DNA of 64,000 bases from Clostridia bacterium (GTDB lineage Bacteria > Bacillota > Clostridia > RGIG6154). The DNA is taken from positions 1 to 64,000 of the forward strand of contig JAFQQW010000001.1 of the NCBI GenBank assembly GCA_017410375.1, written 5' to 3'. The translations under genes were made by a program, and so were the position numbers. The notes under the pieces are model-generated. The model did not search any database. It was not told where the DNA came from and worked only from the letters and a program-made list of their open reading frames with translations. Below are positions 54,880-64,000 of the stretch, one piece after another. The first letter of the stretch is position 1. Each line of letters starts with the position of its first letter.

Positions 54880-56367
54880 ATGGATATTATAAAAAAATAT
54901 GTAGATAAATTTAATGGAGAGGACGAAGAATTGTATGTAAATCTTATAGATAATGCACATGCTTATGAGTGGCTTTCGGATGAGATTCCTGTTTTTGAAT
55001 GTCCGGATGAGGATATTGAAGAAGCTTATTATTTCAGGTGGTGGACATACAGAAAACACCTTAAAAAGACTGAGGATGGATATATTATAAGCGAATTTCT
55101 GCCAAAGGTTTCGTGGAGTGGAAAACATAATGAAATAAATGCCGCTGTAGGGCATCATCTTTATGAGGGACGTTGGCTTAAAAATTCAGGGAAGTATCTT
55201 AAAGATTACATAAATTTCTTTTTGAATAACCCGGAGAGGGGGCATCAGTACAGTGCATGGCTCATATATGCTGTTCATCAGATGTGTATGGTAAACGGTG
55301 AATGGAATATGGGTGCAGACTTCCTTGAAAAGATATGCAGATACTATGAGGAATGGGAAAAAACACATCTCCTTCCAAATGGAATGTACTGGTCTTATGA
55401 TAATTACGATGCTATGGAATATATGGTAAGTGGAACTACTGAAGATTTGAGGTGTTTAAAGGGCATCCGTCCTACGCTTAACTCATATATGTGTGCCGAT
55501 GCATGGGCAATTGCCAATTTTGCAAGGCGTATGGGGAAAAAAGATATAGAGGAAAAATACCTGAAAAAATACGAACTCTTAAAAGAAGCCATAAACAAAA
55601 ATCTCTGGCAGGATGGATTTTACAGAGCATTTCATTTTGAAGACAACGCAGAAGGAAGCACCGTTGAGAGTATTATAGAAAACTGGAGGGATAAAAGCCC
55701 GAAAGAACTTATAGGCTATATCCCGTGGATGTTCAATATCCCGTATGAGAAAAGAGAAAGTGTGTTTGAATATCTGACAGACGAGAATTTCTTCTCTACG
55801 GAATTTGGTCTTGCAACTTTAGAAAAAAACAACAAAAGATTTTTATATGAGGTAGACCATGAATGCCTTTGGAATGGTTATGTGTGGCCATTTGCAACAG
55901 CGCAGACTCTTACGGCTATGAGAAACATGATTGTAAACTGCAGTGACAGAGAAAAGTATAAAGATTCATTTTTTAAACTTTGTAAACAGTATGCAAAAAG
56001 CCATAAGCGGGTTGCTGAAAATGGAAAAATTGTAAATTGGATTGATGAGGTAAGACATCCTTTAAAGGATGAATGGTCAAGTCGTGAGATACTTAAAAAT
56101 CTTGACTGGATGAAGGATATAGGTGGCATGCCGGAGCGTGGTAAGGATTATAATCATTCTACGTTCTGTGATGTTGTTATTTCAGGTATTGCAGGTGTTA
56201 TATATGAAAAAGATGAATTGATGCTAATGCCAATGATTCCGGAAGATTGGGAATGGTTCAAACTTGAAAATCTTCATATAAGAGGTAAAAAATATTCTGT
56301 GATATATGATAAAACAGGAGATAAATATAACTGCGGAAAAGGTCTGATGATAAGAATGATTGGTTAA
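54880..56367 (+). CDS. (alpha/alpha)6-barrel glycoside hydrolase, MGH1/GH63-like
   Basis: The 495-residue cytosolic protein has the helical barrel typical of MGH1-like (PF22422) and GH63/GH37-related enzymes, which cleave alpha-linked glucosyl or mannosyl units. Indicative segments are YWSYDNYDAMEYMVSGT near residue 167, RPTLNSYMCADAWAIANFAR near 201, HECLWNGYVWPFATAQTLTAM near 327, and a C-terminal strand pair (LHIRGKKYSVIY). Family rank is uncertain. GCGAGGTGAAAT precedes the ATG. It leads an operon with a propeller and a CE7 esterase, controlled by a divergent AraC protein. Confidence 0.72.
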   Translation: MDIIKKYVDKFNGEDEELYVNLIDNAHAYEWLSDEIPVFECPDEDIEEAYYFRWWTYRKHLKKTEDGYIISEFLPKVSWSGKHNEINAAVGHHLYEGRWLKNSGKYLKDYINFFLNNPERGHQYSAWLIYAVHQMCMVNGEWNMGADFLEKICRYYEEWEKTHLLPNGMYWSYDNYDAMEYMVSGTTEDLRCLKGIRPTLNSYMCADAWAIANFARRMGKKDIEEKYLKKYELLKEAINKNLWQDGFYRAFHFEDNAEGSTVESIIENWRDKSPKELIGYIPWMFNIPYEKRESVFEYLTDENFFSTEFGLATLEKNNKRFLYEVDHECLWNGYVWPFATAQTLTAMRNMIVNCSDREKYKDSFFKLCKQYAKSHKRVAENGKIVNWIDEVRHPLKDEWSSREILKNLDWMKDIGGMPERGKDYNHSTFCDVVISGIAGVIYEKDELMLMPMIPEDWEWFKLENLHIRGKKYSVIYDKTGDKYNCGKGLMIRMIG

Positions 56368-56489: not shown

Positions 56490-57380
56490 ATGGAAAATTT
56501 TAAAAAATATATTAAAAATCCGGTTTTTGGGGACAAATCAACCGGAACAACATTTGATGCATATGTGTGGGTGGACAACGGAAGATACAGAATGGACTTT
56601 TCATGGAGGCCAAAGAAAGCATGTGCTGTTACCTTCAGTGATGACGGAATTAACTGGAGTGAGCCGGTTATTACTTTGAGTTCAAACGAAAAAACAGGCT
56701 GGGAGGACGATATAAACAGAAATTGTGTTATAAAGGTTGATGATGTGTATAAGATGTGGTATACCGGTCAGGCAAGAGGAAAGAGCTATATCGGTTATGC
56801 TGTAAGCAATGATGGTATAAATTTTATTCGTGTAAGTGAAGAACCTGTCATGATTGCGGAGTATAATTGGGAAAAGGAATCGGTTATGAATCCCTGTGTA
56901 ATCTATGATGACGGATTATATAAAATGTGGTATTCGGCAGGTGAGACGTATGAGCCTAATGTTAATGCCTATGCAACAAGCACTAACGGAATAGAATGGA
57001 AAAAAGCAAAATGTAATCCTATTTTTGTATGTGACCCTGAAAATGAATATGAGCAAAACAGAATAGGTGGTTGCCATGTTGTTAAAACAGAGGGCATGGG
57101 TTATGTAATGTTCTACATAGGCTACAAGGATATTGATACAGCACAGATTTGTGTTGCAAAATCAAAAAATGGAATAACCGGGTGGGAAAGGTCGAAATTA
57201 AATCCATTAATTGTTCCTGAAAAAGGTATGTGGGATTCGGATGCATGTTATAAGCCGACAGTTGTATGGAATGAAAAAGATAAAAAATGGATGCTTTGGT
57301 ATAACGGAAGAACAGCTGACCGTGAATATATTGGGTATGCAGAATATAATAATAGAAATTTATTTAAAGAAGAATTGTAG
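56490..57380 (+). CDS. Five-bladed beta-propeller glycosidase, GH43/GH130-like
   Basis: The 296-residue protein has repeated blade motifs: VYKMWYTGQARGKSYIGYAV, LYKMWYSAG and WMLWYNGRTADREYIGYAE. This fits the GH43/GH130/GH32-type five-bladed fold; which family cannot be decided by eye. No signal peptide. CGGAAAGGAG precedes the ATG. It is second in the operon, 122 bases after the MGH1-like gene and 12 bases before the esterase gene. A GH130 member would phosphorolyse mannosides, a GH43 member would release arabinose or xylose. Confidence 0.7.
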   Translation: MENFKKYIKNPVFGDKSTGTTFDAYVWVDNGRYRMDFSWRPKKACAVTFSDDGINWSEPVITLSSNEKTGWEDDINRNCVIKVDDVYKMWYTGQARGKSYIGYAVSNDGINFIRVSEEPVMIAEYNWEKESVMNPCVIYDDGLYKMWYSAGETYEPNVNAYATSTNGIEWKKAKCNPIFVCDPENEYEQNRIGGCHVVKTEGMGYVMFYIGYKDIDTAQICVAKSKNGITGWERSKLNPLIVPEKGMWDSDACYKPTVVWNEKDKKWMLWYNGRTADREYIGYAEYNNRNLFKEEL

Positions 57381-57392
57381 GAGGAAAGAAAA

Positions 57393-58349
57393 ATGCCACT
57401 TATTGATATGCCAATTAAAGAATTGGAAAAATATGAAGGAACAAATCCGAAACCTGTTGATTTTGATGAATATTGGGATAATGCCATAAAAGAAATGAAA
57501 GCGGTAAATCCCAAGGTTGAATTTATAAAAAAGGAATTTGAATTTCCCGGAGCCGAATGCTACGATATGTATTTTACCGGTGTTAACGGTGCAAGAGTTT
57601 ATGCTAAACATATAAGACCGAAAAATATAACAGGCAAAATACCGGCAATTCTTTTGTTCCACGGTTATTCAGGTCATAGTGGGGATTGGTGCCAAAAATT
57701 GTCTTATATACAGGCAGGCTTTGCGGTTTTTGCTATGGATGCACGAGGTCAGGGCGGAAAAAGTGAAGATGTAGGCGGTGTTCACGGAACTACATATGCA
57801 GGTCACATTGTAAGAGGCTTGGATGACAAAGATCCAAATAAACTTTTGTTCCGAGATATTTTCCTTGATACCGCTGAACTTGCAAACATTGCTATGAGTA
57901 TGGATTTTATTGATGAAAATAAAATATATGCTATGGGCGGAAGTCAGGGCGGTGCATTAACAATTGCCTGTGCTGCATTAGAACCACGTGTAGCAAGAAT
58001 TTCGACTACATTCCCGTTTTTATCGGATTATAAACGTGTTTGGGAAATGGATCTGGCAAAAGCTGCGTATGGTGAATTGAGACAGTACTTCAGGGATTTT
58101 GACCCTGAACACATCAGGGAGAACGAAATATTCACCAAGTTAGGTTATATTGATTTGCAGTACCTTGCACCAAGGATAAAAGCAAAAACTCAATTTATAA
58201 CAGGACTTATGGATGAAATTTGTCCTCCATCAACACAGTATGCAGTATATAATAAGCTTGTTTGCGAAAAGACACACATTATATATCCCGATTTTGGGCA
58301 TGAAGATATTAACACGGCTGCAGATAAAGTATTTTTGTTTTTTCTTTGA
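57393..58349 (+). CDS. CE7 acetylxylan esterase / cephalosporin-C deacetylase
   Basis: The 318-residue alpha/beta hydrolase removes acetyl groups from sugars or short oligosaccharides in the cytosol. Family motifs: the RGQGG element in MDARGQGGKSED, the GGSQGG elbow with Ser near residue 184, Asp in GLMDEICPP near 273, and His in DFGHEDI near 303. N-terminal LEKYEGTNPKPVDFDEYW is also typical. AGGAGG precedes the ATG. It ends the operon. It implies that the substrate of this locus is O-acetylated. Confidence 0.92.
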   Translation: MPLIDMPIKELEKYEGTNPKPVDFDEYWDNAIKEMKAVNPKVEFIKKEFEFPGAECYDMYFTGVNGARVYAKHIRPKNITGKIPAILLFHGYSGHSGDWCQKLSYIQAGFAVFAMDARGQGGKSEDVGGVHGTTYAGHIVRGLDDKDPNKLLFRDIFLDTAELANIAMSMDFIDENKIYAMGGSQGGALTIACAALEPRVARISTTFPFLSDYKRVWEMDLAKAAYGELRQYFRDFDPEHIRENEIFTKLGYIDLQYLAPRIKAKTQFITGLMDEICPPSTQYAVYNKLVCEKTHIIYPDFGHEDINTAADKVFLFFL

Positions 58350-58377: not shown

Positions 58378-59577
58378 TTATGCCAACAACCAATCAATCA
58401 CATTTATCTGCTTTATACCTTCGTAATTTGCTCCATTGCCGATATCATCAAGAGTTAAAAGAGTTTTTGGGTAATTATCTTTTATCTCCTGCAACGGTGC
58501 TAGTTCTCGTTCTAAGGTCTTTTCATCAAGTACGCTTGCAGAAACCTGATAATACTCAACCTCGTTCATATTGGTTGCAACAAAATCCACTTCTTTTTCA
58601 GCTAACTTACCAATATTAACACGATTTTTTCTTCTTAAAAGTTCAAGATAAACCACATTTTCAAGAAGATGTCCCAAATCTCTTGTGGATTGGCTTATAA
58701 TATGATTTCTTATTCCACTATCTACAAAATAATACTTGCCAAGAGTTTTTAGGAATTGTCTACCTTTTATATCGTATCTCGTTGCATTATAAAGAATATA
58801 GCTGTCTGTCAAAGCTCTTAAATACGCCTCAACTGTATTAGGCGAAATCTTTCTGCCACTTGATATCAGTGTATCGCTTATTTTCTTTGTCGAAATAGGA
58901 CTTCCTATACTTGAGGCAACGGTTTTTAATATGTTCTCCAATACTGATACATCATTTATTTTCTCTCTTGTAGCAACATCTTTTAAGAGAATGGTGTTGT
59001 AGCTACCTTCGATATACTGATTTATAACTTTCTCATTGTTTTCAAGATATGCAACATAGGGGAACGAGCCATATCTTAAATAGCTATCAAAGATTTCTCG
59101 TTTGTTTTTGCCGCTTTCCTTTGTTGCTTCGTAGTATTCTTTGAAAGAAAAGGGTAACATATCAATTTGAATATATCTTCCTGAAAGCAATGTTGCAAGT
59201 TCTCCTGACAGTAAATAAGCATTAGAACCTGTAATATAAACATCGCAGTTTTTCTTTATAAAAAGACTGTCAACCGCTTTTTCAAATTCACTACATTTCT
59301 GCACTTCATCTATAAAAATGTAATTATTTTTATTGGGAACAAGGTTTGAAGTTATATAGTTGTATAACGCTTTGTAATCCAATAAATCAGCATTTTCAAG
59401 CTCTTCAAGATTGACCGATATAATTTGACTATCATCTATGCCTGTCTGCTTTAAATGGTCAATGTACAACTCAAACAAAGTAGATTTACCGCATCTTCTG
59501 ACACCGGTGATAACTTTGATAACCTGTTTATCTTTTAGTGCTATTAAATTATCTAAATATTCTTTTCGCTGAATCAT
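58378..59577 (-). CDS. AAA_14/DUF4143 ATPase
   Basis: The 399-residue protein has an N-terminal P-loop ATPase (TGVRRCGKST Walker A near residue 28; YIFIDEVQ Walker B near 88; an LSGRYIQIDMLPFSFKEYY sensor region) and a C-terminal DUF4143 domain with a restriction-endonuclease-like fold (VYLELLRRKN, KEVDFVA). Such genes are common, often mobile, and function is unknown. Start ATG 59577 lies 6 bases after GAGGTG. It is convergent with the esterase gene (28 bases apart) and unrelated to the glycan genes. Confidence 0.88.
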   Translation of the reverse strand: MIQRKEYLDNLIALKDKQVIKVITGVRRCGKSTLFELYIDHLKQTGIDDSQIISVNLEELENADLLDYKALYNYITSNLVPNKNNYIFIDEVQKCSEFEKAVDSLFIKKNCDVYITGSNAYLLSGELATLLSGRYIQIDMLPFSFKEYYEATKESGKNKREIFDSYLRYGSFPYVAYLENNEKVINQYIEGSYNTILLKDVATREKINDVSVLENILKTVASSIGSPISTKKISDTLISSGRKISPNTVEAYLRALTDSYILYNATRYDIKGRQFLKTLGKYYFVDSGIRNHIISQSTRDLGHLLENVVYLELLRRKNRVNIGKLAEKEVDFVATNMNEVEYYQVSASVLDEKTLERELAPLQEIKDNYPKTLLTLDDIGNGANYEGIKQINVIDWLLA

Positions 59578-59816
59578 TTTTGGCACCTCATTTCTTTGAT
59601 TTTATACTAACACAAAACTTTGATTTTGCCAATAGTTTTTTCTCATACAAGAAAAAACTTGTAAATTTCGACAACTTATTTCTGTAGACGTTTCGGAAAT
59701 AAGTTTTCCCTAATCAAGTAGGAGGCTAATCAACTTATGGTTAGCCTCCTACTCGATTTTGTTCTAATGAATATTCTGTAAAACACATCAAAATGACTTC
59801 AATATGTAGCGTTGCA
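59578..59816. other. Intergenic region with two hairpins
   Basis: Between two minus-strand genes. AACTTATTTC/GAAATAAGTT near 59680-59714 and AGTAGGAGGCTAA/TTAGCCTCCTACT at 59717-59753 form stems of 10 and 13 bp. No gene is seen. Confidence 0.5.
59717..59758. terminator. Long-stem terminator
   Basis: A 13 bp stem with an 11-base loop, followed on the plus strand by CGATTTT; probably the end of the AraC transcript on minus. Confidence 0.55.
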
Positions 59817-60605
59817 CTATGTACTTTTTCTGTAATCAGCCGGGCAAATGCCAAATGCTTTTTTAAATTCTCTGCTGAAATAGCTCATATCTGTATAGCC
59901 TGATAGTTCAGCGGCTTCTGTTATTGTATACATTCCGGACGTTATAAGCTCCTTTGCGTAAGATATTTTCAGTTCATTGATATATTTTCGCGGCGATATT
60001 CCAAATGTATTTTTAAATATTTTTCTTAAATAATCTTCACTTATATCGCACATTGCAGACAACTCTGAAATGCATATACTTTCGTTTGTGTAATTCTTTT
60101 TAATATATTCAACAGCAGGAGCAATCAGATTAGCGGTACTGCGTGCCATGTATTTTGAGTTGTATTCGCTCTGCATCATAGATATAATATTATACAAAAT
60201 TGATTTACACTGCATATGAAATGCGGTGTTTTTATTTTTCCATAATTCCGTTGCCTTTTCAAACTCCTTAATAAAAGCAGAAGCATTTTTTAATTTGAAG
60301 GAAAACGGTTCAAAATCAATATTTTCGGAAATATCAAAATTTATTGCATAACAATTTCCCGAAATTTTCGAACAGACTGTATAACTTGAACCTTTTGGCA
60401 TATAAATAATCTCATTTTGTCCAACTGAAACAACTTTTTCATCAGAAAAAACATATTTTTTTGCATCATCCGGATTTGGGGATATGTTAACAGCAATGCC
60501 GTGCGAGGCTCTGTTTTTATGAACGGGTTCGCCTGTTCCGGGTTTAACATATGTTGCAAGCATGATATTTGTAATATTAAAATCAGAATTCATAAAATTT
60601 TTCAT
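59817..60605 (-). CDS. AraC-family regulator of the glycyl radical enzyme divergon
   Basis: The 262-residue regulator has an N-terminal cupin-type sensor (GQNEIIYMPKGSSYTV) and a C-terminal AraC domain (CISELSAMCDISEDYLRKIFK; ITEAAELSGYTDMSYFSREFK). Start ATG 60605 follows AGAGGTAATGTT; the longer frame to 60653 runs into the promoter's -35. It diverges from the glycyl radical enzyme gene, whose promoter has a good -10 but no -35, fitting activator control. The effector is unknown and would be a clue to the enzyme's substrate. Confidence 0.9.
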   Translation of the reverse strand: MKNFMNSDFNITNIMLATYVKPGTGEPVHKNRASHGIAVNISPNPDDAKKYVFSDEKVVSVGQNEIIYMPKGSSYTVCSKISGNCYAINFDISENIDFEPFSFKLKNASAFIKEFEKATELWKNKNTAFHMQCKSILYNIISMMQSEYNSKYMARSTANLIAPAVEYIKKNYTNESICISELSAMCDISEDYLRKIFKNTFGISPRKYINELKISYAKELITSGMYTITEAAELSGYTDMSYFSREFKKAFGICPADYRKST

Positions 60606-60624
60606 AACATTACCTCTTGGTGTT

Positions 60625-60653
60625 ATTATATAATTCATTCTTGAAAAAGTCAA
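60625..60653 (-). promoter_or_regulatory. Promoter of the AraC gene
   Basis: Minus-strand TTGACT and TATAAT with a 17-base spacer, 20 bases upstream of the start. Confidence 0.75.
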
Positions 60654-60699: not shown

Positions 60700-60738
60700 T
60701 TGTAATATCAGTAATTAATTTTGAAAGGAATGGTTTTC

Positions 60739-62982
60739 GTGAGCAATTTATGGAACGCATTTGAAACTGACAGAGAAATGCTTGATAAACAGTATGTCAA
60801 AGCATGGAACAATGAGGAATCCTTCGAAAGGGTAGAAAATCTGCAAAGTAGAGTTATGGAGCTTGCCGATACATTAAAAGAATGCTCGCATCCCGTAGTC
60901 AAAGCAAAATGCTTTGATTACATATTGGAGAATGCACAGATTTGCATTAATCCTGATGATTGGTTCGGGATTTCATTAGAGGCTGCGAAAATGGATCCGA
61001 TAGTGGATATTGGTTGTCATTATGTTAAAATTTTAAATTCACTGCACAATAAATGGAAAAACGAGCTTGGTGATGTATTGTACCCGGAGCAGGATAAGCA
61101 TTTTTGCAAATATGCAGTAAATAATTTGCTTAACGAATTTTATATTGATTACAATCATTCAACTCCAAACTGGGAAGATATTTTTAAATACGGAATCAAC
61201 GGTCTTTTAAAAAGAGTACAGAGCTATAAAACTGATTTAGACAAAAAATCACCACTGTTCTCCGAACAGCTTGCATATTTTGAAGGTATTGAAATAACAT
61301 ACAATGCAATTTTAAAGCTATTTAAAAGATATATAATTGCATTAGATAAAAAAACAGAGCCCAAAATGGTATGTATGAAAAAGGCTTTTGAAAATCTGAC
61401 AAACAACCCTCCAGCAAACACTTATGAGGCACTTTTGCTTGCTGTGCAGTATTGGTTTTTGCAGGAAAACATAGACTGCGTAAGAGCAAGAACAATGGGT
61501 GGACTTGATCAGCTTTACTATCCGTTCTATAAAAACGATTTAGAAAACGGTACATTCACAAAGGAAAATATAAAAGAGCTGTTTGTATATTTTATGAACG
61601 TTTTTAATGCAATGCGCGTGGCGTATCAGCAGCCAATCTATGTCGGTGGTATGAACGAAAAAGGCGCTTGCATCGTAAATGAGCTTTCATATATAGTATT
61701 GGATGCTTATAATACTTTGTCTGCTCCAAATCCGAAGCTTCAGACAAAAATAGGTAAAAACACGCCTGATAAATTTTTAAAAGCCGTTGTTGAAACCATA
61801 CGAAACGGAAATTCAAGCATTTCCATTATGAACGATGATAATGCAGCATTGTCACTTATGAAGTTAGGGGTACCTGAAGAGGAAGCGCTTACGAATCTTA
61901 TGTCGGGATGTTGGGATTATACCGTAAAAAATCATGAGGTCAAAACACTACCCGTCAGAGTTTCTTTGCCTAAAATTTTGGAATACACAATGACAAACGG
62001 CAGATGTCTCACCACAAATGAAACTGTAGGCTGTGAAACAGGGAGCACTTTTGAAACCTTTGAGGATTTTTATTCTGCTTATGAAAAGCAATGGCTGTAT
62101 ATCTGGAAAAGGGTTAAAAGTATTATTGAAAATTGGGAGTTGTACCTTGCTGATATCAGCCCATCGAATATGTTTTCGGGAACTATGACCGACTCGCTTG
62201 CACAGGGAGTTGACGGATACGCACGGGGAATGAAGTATAATACGACGGTTTATACGGTCGCAGGACTTGGTACATTGGTTGACGGTCTTTGTGCTGTAAA
62301 AAAATATGTGTTTGACAAAAAAGAGGTTTCTCTTGTAGAATTTGTTGAAATTTTAAAAAATAATTGGAACAACAATGAGCGACTCAGAAAAATCATTTTA
62401 AATGATAAAGATAAATACGGAAACGGCTCGGATTTGGCAGATGAATTAATGATCAGATTAACTGATTTCTTTGCCAAAAGTATAAACGGCGTTCCAAACA
62501 GCAGAGGCGGATACTGGAAACTTGGTACTTTATCTATAGATAAGAATGTCCGTTATGGTGCAGTGACAAAGGCAACGCCTGACGGTAGAAAAGAAGGCGA
62601 ACCATTTTCAAAAAATCTTTCTCCTGTAATCGGAATGGACCGTGGAGGAATAACAACCTTATTAAACTCAGTCGGCAAAATGGATTTTTCACAATTCCCG
62701 CACGCAGGAATGCTTGATCTGATTTTACATCCGACAGCAGTAAGCGGTGATGATGGTCTTGAGGCTTTTGCCGGTCTTGTAAAAGCGTATTTTGCCAAAG
62801 GCGGTCACTCTTTGCAGTTTAATATTTTCTCCGCTGAGACATTAAAGGAAGCACAGAAAAATCCGGAAAAATACAGAACACTTCAAATCAGAGTTTGCGG
62901 ATGGAATGTGTATTTTGTTGATTTGGAAAAGGTATTGCAGGATGCATTTATAAAACAATGTGAGCATTATGAAAGTATTTAA
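60739..62982 (+). CDS. Glycyl radical enzyme of unknown specificity
   Basis: The 747-residue protein belongs to the pyruvate formate-lyase/diol dehydratase superfamily. The thiyl-radical cysteine is C391 in SGCWDY and the glycyl radical is G721 in IRVCGWN, 27 residues before the C-terminus, as in the family. The motifs are atypical: GCWD replaces the GCVE of dehydratase/lyase members, and a cysteine precedes the radical glycine. It lacks the second adjacent cysteine of true pyruvate formate-lyase. GTG at 60739 is chosen because AAAGGA lies 9 bases upstream. No radical-SAM activase is seen within the window. The substrate is probably a sugar or sugar derivative, judged only from neighbours. 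Confidence 0.85.
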   Translation: MSNLWNAFETDREMLDKQYVKAWNNEESFERVENLQSRVMELADTLKECSHPVVKAKCFDYILENAQICINPDDWFGISLEAAKMDPIVDIGCHYVKILNSLHNKWKNELGDVLYPEQDKHFCKYAVNNLLNEFYIDYNHSTPNWEDIFKYGINGLLKRVQSYKTDLDKKSPLFSEQLAYFEGIEITYNAILKLFKRYIIALDKKTEPKMVCMKKAFENLTNNPPANTYEALLLAVQYWFLQENIDCVRARTMGGLDQLYYPFYKNDLENGTFTKENIKELFVYFMNVFNAMRVAYQQPIYVGGMNEKGACIVNELSYIVLDAYNTLSAPNPKLQTKIGKNTPDKFLKAVVETIRNGNSSISIMNDDNAALSLMKLGVPEEEALTNLMSGCWDYTVKNHEVKTLPVRVSLPKILEYTMTNGRCLTTNETVGCETGSTFETFEDFYSAYEKQWLYIWKRVKSIIENWELYLADISPSNMFSGTMTDSLAQGVDGYARGMKYNTTVYTVAGLGTLVDGLCAVKKYVFDKKEVSLVEFVEILKNNWNNNERLRKIILNDKDKYGNGSDLADELMIRLTDFFAKSINGVPNSRGGYWKLGTLSIDKNVRYGAVTKATPDGRKEGEPFSKNLSPVIGMDRGGITTLLNSVGKMDFSQFPHAGMLDLILHPTAVSGDDGLEAFAGLVKAYFAKGGHSLQFNIFSAETLKEAQKNPEKYRTLQIRVCGWNVYFVDLEKVLQDAFIKQCEHYESI

Positions 62983-63003: not shown

Positions 63004-63642
63004 ATGAAGAAGATTGTTTTAATAGGAGATTCAATACGAAAAGGCTATGACAGCTACACGAAAATGGCATTCGAAGACGTGGCCGAGGTTTATTATCCGG
63101 AAGACAACTGCCGTTTTGCAGCATACACGCTAAGACATCTTTGTGATTGGAAAGATCAATTTGGATGCGGAGATGATGTTGACTGTGTACATTGGAATGC
63201 AGGACTGTGGGACTGCCTTATTATGGCAGTTGACGGCGAATATTTAACACCAATAGAGCTATATAAATACTATCTTGAGAGGGTTTGTAATGCTATCAAA
63301 AAATTGTTCCCCTATGCTAAAGTGATTTTTGCCACTTCTACACCTGTTCAGGAAGAATTGTTCTGGAGGAATAAAAGGTATAACAAAGATATTGAAGCAT
63401 ATAACAATGCAGCGATTGAAATTGCAAAAAAGCACGGATTTGAAATAAACGATCTTTATGCTCTTACAAAAGATGCGCCAAAATCTTATCATTCTGATTT
63501 AACGCACTATTATACAAAAGAAGGAACAAAACTCATTACAAATAAGGTTGTTAAGTGTATAGAAAATTGTCTGAACATCAAAGCAAAAGAACTTGATTAT
63601 GACAAGCTGTTTGCTGATACTGACGATGTAGTTGGTATTTAA
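63004..63642 (+). CDS. SGNH/GDSL hydrolase (carbohydrate esterase-like)
   Basis: The 212-residue cytosolic hydrolase has SGNH blocks: LIGDSIRKGY (Ser10), VHWNAGLWD (Asn in block III) and HSDLTHYYTKEG with the D-x-x-H of block V. It is likely an esterase acting on acetyl or acyl groups of a sugar. It starts 21 bases after the glycyl radical enzyme stop, so they are co-transcribed. GTGAGG precedes the ATG. Confidence 0.85.
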   Translation: MKKIVLIGDSIRKGYDSYTKMAFEDVAEVYYPEDNCRFAAYTLRHLCDWKDQFGCGDDVDCVHWNAGLWDCLIMAVDGEYLTPIELYKYYLERVCNAIKKLFPYAKVIFATSTPVQEELFWRNKRYNKDIEAYNNAAIEIAKKHGFEINDLYALTKDAPKSYHSDLTHYYTKEGTKLITNKVVKCIENCLNIKAKELDYDKLFADTDDVVGI

Positions 63643-63844: not shown

Positions 63845-64000
63845 ATGAAATCATTTTTATTAATAGGTCAGTCAAATATGGCAGGACGAGGAGAGTTCGG
63901 AGAAGTTCCCGAAATCATAAATTCAAAATGCTTTATGTTGAGAAACGGAAAATGGGTGCCTATGAGTGAGCCCATAAACCCTGACAGGAGTATTTTTAAT
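63845..64000 (+). CDS. SASA-type carbohydrate esterase (sialate O-acetylesterase-like), partial
   Basis: The first 52 residues of a gene cut by the window edge. LLIGQSNMAGRG at residues 6-17 is the nucleophile block of the SASA/DUF303 family, which removes acetyl groups from sialic acids or plant polysaccharides. CGGAGGAAAAG lies 3-8 bases before the ATG. It continues the glycyl radical enzyme operon. No signal peptide, so cytosolic. Confidence 0.82.
   Translation, partial: MKSFLLIGQSNMAGRGEFGEVPEIINSKCFMLRNGKWVPMSEPINPDRSIFN

Follow-up and report, generated by a model that had tools for sequence, protein, structure and literature searches.

Near the end of the window (the whole 64,000-nucleotide stretch of DNA analysed here), the forward strand encodes a glycyl radical enzyme (GRE) of 747 amino acids at positions 60739..62982. 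The gene begins with GTG, a start that agrees with the aligned N-termini of two homologues (L046 and L047), and the sequence AAAGGA (60724-60729) lies 9 nt 5' of it. The product matches the Pfam PFL-like and Gly_radical domains with 335 and 86 bits, respectively. In translation, the Cys loop reads MSGCWDY and the glycyl loop QIRVCGWN. G390-C391-W392-D393 occupies 61906..61917 (+), with C391 encoded by tgt (61909-61911), W392 by tgg, and D393 by gat (61915-61917), while R718-V-C-G721-W-N723 occupies 62890..62907 (+), with G721 encoded by gga (62899-62901). The GCWD (C391, D393) and RVCGWN (G721) motifs reported in the first-pass annotation are exact to the letter on retranslation and codon check. 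GCWD is present in two further genes, both in a separate assembly (Oscillospiraceae SIG435); one of these also carries RVCGWN and the other ends before the glycyl loop. Since the motifs are seen again in an independent assembly, they are not assembly noise. The enzyme is an oxygen-sensitive radical enzyme of an anaerobic gut-type bacterium.

A divergent AraC-family regulator (Pfam; 59817..60653, minus strand) lies directly upstream of the GRE. On the other side, an SGNH/GDSL hydrolase with no obvious signal peptide (63004..63642, +) begins 21 bp past the GRE and is followed by a SASA-family carbohydrate acetylesterase (63845..64000, +), which reaches the window end and continues to contig position 64558. 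Beyond the window, the contig encodes an EamA transporter (64539-65471), a GRE activase (65475-66353) located 2.5 kb downstream of the GRE, and a sugar-hydrolase-like protein without a Pfam match (66403-68319). The operon order is GRE, SGNH hydrolase, SASA acetylesterase, EamA transporter, and activase, the last being a radical SAM protein with extra Fe-S sites. A separate transcription unit holds the acetyl xylan esterase AXE1 (57393..58349, +; Pfam, 409 bits), and an MGH1-like glycoside hydrolase (54880-56367, +) and a GH32/43/130-like protein (56490-57380, +), both identified with Pfam, are also part of the gene context. The AAA/DUF4143 gene at 58378-59586 was judged unrelated to the GRE module. 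An Rfam scan around the GRE found no RNA element.

The protein belongs to the GRE superfamily, as seen from its barrel, Gly_radical domain, RVXG[FWY] glycyl loop, central cysteine, and radical-SAM activase partner. The AlphaFold2 model suggested in the first-pass annotation was built from an input that included 31 relatives and gives a confident GRE fold (mean pLDDT 92.3, pTM 0.92). Foldseek against the PDB returned only GREs among the matches listed, led by the trans-4-hydroxy-L-proline dehydratase HypD and the propanediol and glycerol dehydratases (TM 0.83-0.87). HypD (PDB 6vxc) is the best PDB match by both sequence and fold, and a profile search of PDB chains, in which HypD was again the top match, found none from the clade described below.

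Assignment to a curated family fails throughout. The query scores below the cut-offs of the HypD family NF043068 (356 bits against 1100), the PFL2-3/glycerol dehydratase subfamily TIGR01774 (327 against 678), the sulfopropanediol dehydratase family (315 against 1000), the CutC family (231 against 1050), pyruvate formate-lyase TIGR01255 (96 against 994), and PRK09983, which covers the AG6P/AM6P ring-opening GREs (243 against 1109). The test itself works because a true HypD (L020) passes with 1463 bits. The same cut-offs are also unmet by the GCYE members of the clade and by its GCNN member. The first-pass annotation expected a substrate or reaction different from those of the assigned branches, and the clade in which the protein falls has neither a solved structure nor a curated family.

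Several specific identities were considered and rejected. HypD shares with the query the fold, the Cys and Gly positions, and a histidine (H160, matching H140), but identity is ~29% (query versus the HypD-family protein L020), the motif is CVE rather than CWD, and D278, S334, D339, F340, Y450, and T645 are not conserved; in the query, D278, S334, D339, and Y450 become R249, A295, Y296, and R407. The B12-independent glycerol and 1,2-propanediol dehydratases (PDB 1r8w and 5i2g) match in fold (TM 0.84-0.87), Cys, Gly, and the His164 equivalent, but the glycerol dehydratase (GD) residues H281, S282, Y339, D447, and Y640 are not conserved. Pyruvate formate-lyase is excluded by the single C391 in place of adjacent cysteines. 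YbiW and PflD, which open the ring of 1,5-anhydrohexitol-6-phosphates, have the GRE fold and offer a precedent for a sugar-derived substrate (PMC12441222), but they are 23-25% identical to the query, keep CIE/CVE where the query has no CXE, lack R251, and have a long capping loop. Aminoacyl radical enzymes, in which Ala, Ser, or Thr substitutes for the glycyl residue, do not fit the retained G721. By motif, the query also falls outside the CXE eliminase group, as CWD replaces CXE in all three GCWD proteins.

Among 157 distinct GREs sampled from the loci analysed, the most frequent glycyl loop is RVCGW[NS] (71/157), and the Cys loops comprise 83 GCYE, 23 GCVE, 10 CCVS, and 3 GCWD. After exclusion of the motif columns, a maximum-likelihood tree groups ~90 rows of the RVCGW[NS] type as a single clade (SH-aLRT 100), separate from HypD, glycerol dehydratase, and pyruvate formate-lyase. 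Its sampled members come from Clostridia, Lentisphaeria, and Kiritimatiellae, and its usual Cys loop is GCYE. The query has the RVCGW[NS] loop, the ~18-residue capping loop, the R251, and the tree position of this clade. The published GRE fingerprint is RVXG[FWY] (PMC11528403), and the Trp after the glycyl Gly falls inside it, which leaves the E-to-D replacement in the Cys loop as the one unusual feature. The RVCGWN loop and its bulky Trp, described as atypical in the first-pass annotation, turn out to be traits of the whole clade.

Within the clade, the query and the two SIG435 copies form one subclade (SH-aLRT 100). The SIG435 proteins are 60-62% identical to the query, and the remaining relatives among the matches listed are at most 40% identical. 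No additional close relative was found at a strict cut-off in 398 genomes sampled across the phylum, SIG435 was the sole additional source in class-level sampling, and scans of IMG/VR and of plasmids found no closer relative (the top plasmid matches are HypD-like, 26-31%). Further GCWD members may exist beyond those among the matches listed. The open-access literature searched describes neither a CXD GRE nor the RVCGW[NS] clade, and no characterised branch sharing both GCWD and RVCGW was found. The clade itself, large and apparently unstudied, is a larger finding than the GCWD change. It has no solved structure or curated NCBI family and is common among Clostridia and Lentisphaeria from herbivore guts.

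GRE eliminases share a conserved CXE motif, the Glu of which is indispensable in both IslA (E470Q) and HypD (E436Q) (PMC8473560, PMC7077986). The first-pass annotation proposed comparing the positions around C391 and D393 with known enzymes. C391 aligns with HypD C434 and GD C433, but D393, in the column of HypD E436 and GD E435, is Asp and not Glu. Among the 84 other clade rows, this position is Glu in 82, Gly in one, and Asn in one; the query has Asp for this Glu and Trp for the Tyr usual in the clade. The change is rare, in line with the first-pass annotation, which called the motif atypical, and it is conserved in all three GCWD proteins, but a different reaction does not follow from E-to-D alone because Asp is still a carboxylate. 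H140 (61156..61158, +) aligns with GD H164 and HypD H160 and is invariant across the clade. R251 on strand beta-1 (61489..61491, +) is found in 83/84 clade rows and is absent from HypD, GD, YbiW, and PflD. The capping segment between beta-2 and beta-3 has 18 residues in 81/84 clade rows, about 14 fewer than the 31-32 residues of HypD (32), GD, and PFL. In all three GCWD sequences, R249 and R407 replace HypD D278 and Y450, respectively; these arginines and R251 were placed in the pocket by alignment with HypD and GD. The shorter cap and the arginines would suggest a more spacious pocket and a substrate with negative charge.

GCYE members such as L002, L049, and L068 share the glycyl loop, short cap, R251, divergent AraC gene, and nearby activase with the query, but they are 35-39% identical to it and have Tyr-Glu and another pocket signature. 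One possibility, which we regard as plausible but well short of probable, is that D393 acts like Glu on the same substrate and in the same reaction as in these sisters, and that W392-D393 reflects drift with compensation, a bigger neighbour beside a shorter acid. The carboxylate is kept, the two residues change jointly (Y to W, E to D), and the query does not depart from the clade in its glycyl loop, in R251, or in the length of its cap. The AraC/GRE/SASA/EamA/activase order is common to GCYE loci L067, L076, and L085, and a GCYE paralogue in the same genome (contig C24:42319-44604) has an activase 71% identical to that of the query. The two GREs, however, are just 39% identical. This contrast would fit divergence of the Cys loop and pocket around a conserved glycyl loop that the activase reads. 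Moreover, the query differs from the main GCYE type at pocket positions 249, 297, 407, 598, 600, and 601 (RRQQDRLID versus QRGQEYHAR). Two GCYE members (L002 and L003) already share its genome, which argues for different jobs for the GCWD and GCYE enzymes.

A more radical alternative is that D393 no longer serves as the base for the substrate hydroxyl and that the enzyme performs a non-eliminase radical reaction such as C-C cleavage, decarboxylation, or another rearrangement. CXE is indeed broken in 3/3 subclade members, GREs without CXE that are not eliminases exist (e.g., PFL with CCVS), and two RVCGW clade members have no acid in the Cys loop, L127 (GCNN) and L098:7983-10211 (GCYG), so loss of the Glu is tolerated in the clade. 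We nevertheless consider this reading unlikely, given that the Asp carboxylate remains, H140 is invariant, a PFL-like adjacent cysteine pair is absent, and the closest folds are eliminases.

A divergent AraC gene lies directly upstream in 41/52 clade loci having upstream sequence versus 0/18 HypD-like controls. An activase is found at most four genes downstream in 37/46 clade loci versus 0/16 controls, the latter being less telling because the activase model was seeded from the RVCGW clade. Four Clostridia operons read GRE-EamA-SASA-activase (L067), GRE-SASA-EamA-activase (L076), GRE-gluconolactonase-EamA-activase (L060), and, with 4-bp gene overlaps, GRE-SASA-gluconolactonase-EamA/activase with the last two fused (L085). 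In all, the SASA deacetylase occurs in L067, L076, and L085, EamA in all four, and an SMP-30/gluconolactonase in L060, L070, L081, and L085. Among 30 other sampled neighbours are six glycosidases (MGH1-like, GH43, two GH2, an arabinofuranosidase, and GH127) and three lactonases. The 573-aa frame at L085:11619-13340 that joins the EamA transporter and the activase is either a real fusion or an assembly error.

Both SIG435 GCWD genes adjoin AraC regulators that are 39-41% identical to that of the query, and one has homologues of the SGNH (49%) and SASA (48%) proteins close by. The genes are surrounded by GH10-type, GH43, and GH28 proteins. The 69.7-kb SIG435 contig holds no activase for either gene, and so these enzymes need an activase from elsewhere. 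The rarity of GCWD and the missing nearby activase in SIG435 could be taken as signs of a decaying or inactive paralogue. We consider this very improbable for the query, which has a full-length frame, intact radical residues, and its own downstream activase and regulator; GCWD is, furthermore, conserved in three genes of two genomes, in copies that are 38-40% diverged. Between the two SIG435 genes lies a catabolic cluster (L147:2178-20571) that is not syntenic with the window and holds KduI/IolB, a PfkB kinase, a class II aldolase, an FGGY kinase, a PMI-type isomerase, ETF, an Fe-S protein, and an FAD-linked oxidase.

Based on these observations, we propose, with a confidence that stops somewhat below an even chance, that the query is an active glycyl radical eliminase of an uncharacterised clade, with D393 in place of Glu. 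Its substrate would probably be a small, polyhydroxylated, and likely anionic molecule derived from the acetylated polysaccharides of plant cell walls. The activity of the enzyme, the role of D393, the reaction class, and the substrate are all inferred. The chemistry is probably related to that of known radical dehydratases, and the substrate is probably a sugar acid, a related lactone, or an anhydro-compound. C391, G721, H140, and the activase are intact, the fold is nearest to eliminases, and 82/84 clade rows keep CXE; the short cap, R251, and sugar-linked operons point the same way, as do the carbohydrate genes around the GCWD loci (AXE1, MGH1-like GH, GH10, GH43, and GH28) and the precedent of YbiW and PflD on anhydrohexitol phosphates (PMC12441222). 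Against this, lactonases are seen solely beside GCYE relatives and none is found in the GCWD operon, the adjoining glycosidases may serve other pathways, and GCNN (L127) and GCYG (L098) show that complete loss of the acid is possible within the clade. Position 393 still carries a carboxylate, so the simplest reading is that the acid of an eliminase has been repositioned, and not that the reaction is wholly new.

In the proposed eliminase mechanism, the downstream activase would take a hydrogen from G721, and the glycyl radical would pass to C391 as a thiyl radical, which would abstract a hydrogen from a C-H bond of the substrate. Backed by H140, D393 would hold or deprotonate the adjacent hydroxyl, a part usually played by Glu. 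Elimination of water (or of a different leaving group at the neighbouring carbon) or ring opening would follow, and the product radical would regain the hydrogen. The short capping loop and R249/R251/R407 would accommodate and bind a larger substrate with negative charge, and in the GCWD subclade the W392-D393 pair would be a matched change that repositions the carboxylate.

The carbohydrate context noted in the first-pass annotation is real and recurs around relatives, but a new radical step in glycan catabolism goes beyond what the window shows, the substrate and reaction being inferred. A more specific proposal, which we put forward only tentatively and think rather doubtful, is that the GCWD enzymes form a GRE subfamily where Asp, accompanied by a Trp and a pocket rich in Arg, has replaced the eliminase Glu, and that they use radical chemistry to dehydrate or ring-open a carboxylated sugar derivative of the plant cell wall. 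If true, this would be a radical route in sugar-acid catabolism, absent from the papers found, in a clade of anaerobic fibre degraders. The short cap and the deacetylase/lactonase/transporter/activase operons of the clade suggest sugar-derived substrates, and such substrates would bring radical enzymology to the breakdown of plant fibre. The GCWD subclade, in which the Glu is swapped for Asp with the other radical machinery kept, offers a natural experiment on the role of the CXE Glu.

Additional GREs have been identified in these genomes. The genome of the query (G000, 2.77 Mb) has at least 12, and the fibre-degrader genomes of the clade can hold a dozen or more. An island on contig C24 of this genome (C24:25005-71474; L010-L012) packs seven divergent GREs into 46 kb, most of them adjoining AraC-type genes, with the Cys/Gly loops GCWG/RVCGF, GCNE/RVTGY, GCYE/RVCGW, SCMG/RIGGY, GCYE/KISGY, ACWE/RVWGW, and GCTE/RVGGY. 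A GRE branch with SCMG for G-C-X-E, which has no acid, was found in three genomes (L008, L070:1959-4058, and L095:12103-14157), and its capping loop is very short (7 residues by alignment). GCVT for GCVE occurs in HypD-like GREs of Latescibacteria, Thorarchaeota, and Aminicenantes MAGs (L113, L116, L119, and L122), and the two of these that were included in the tree form a starred pair. A split pyruvate formate-lyase is encoded on contig C16 of the query's genome (L014:7784-11005), in which a 677-aa PFL (TIGR01255, 1106 bits) ends before the glycyl domain and is followed by a 63-aa ORF, an 81-aa stand-alone glycyl radical protein (GrcA3, just above cut-off), and a PFL activase. Judging by match positions, the arrangement looks alike in the same-genus genomes G001 and G002 and the same-family genome G005.
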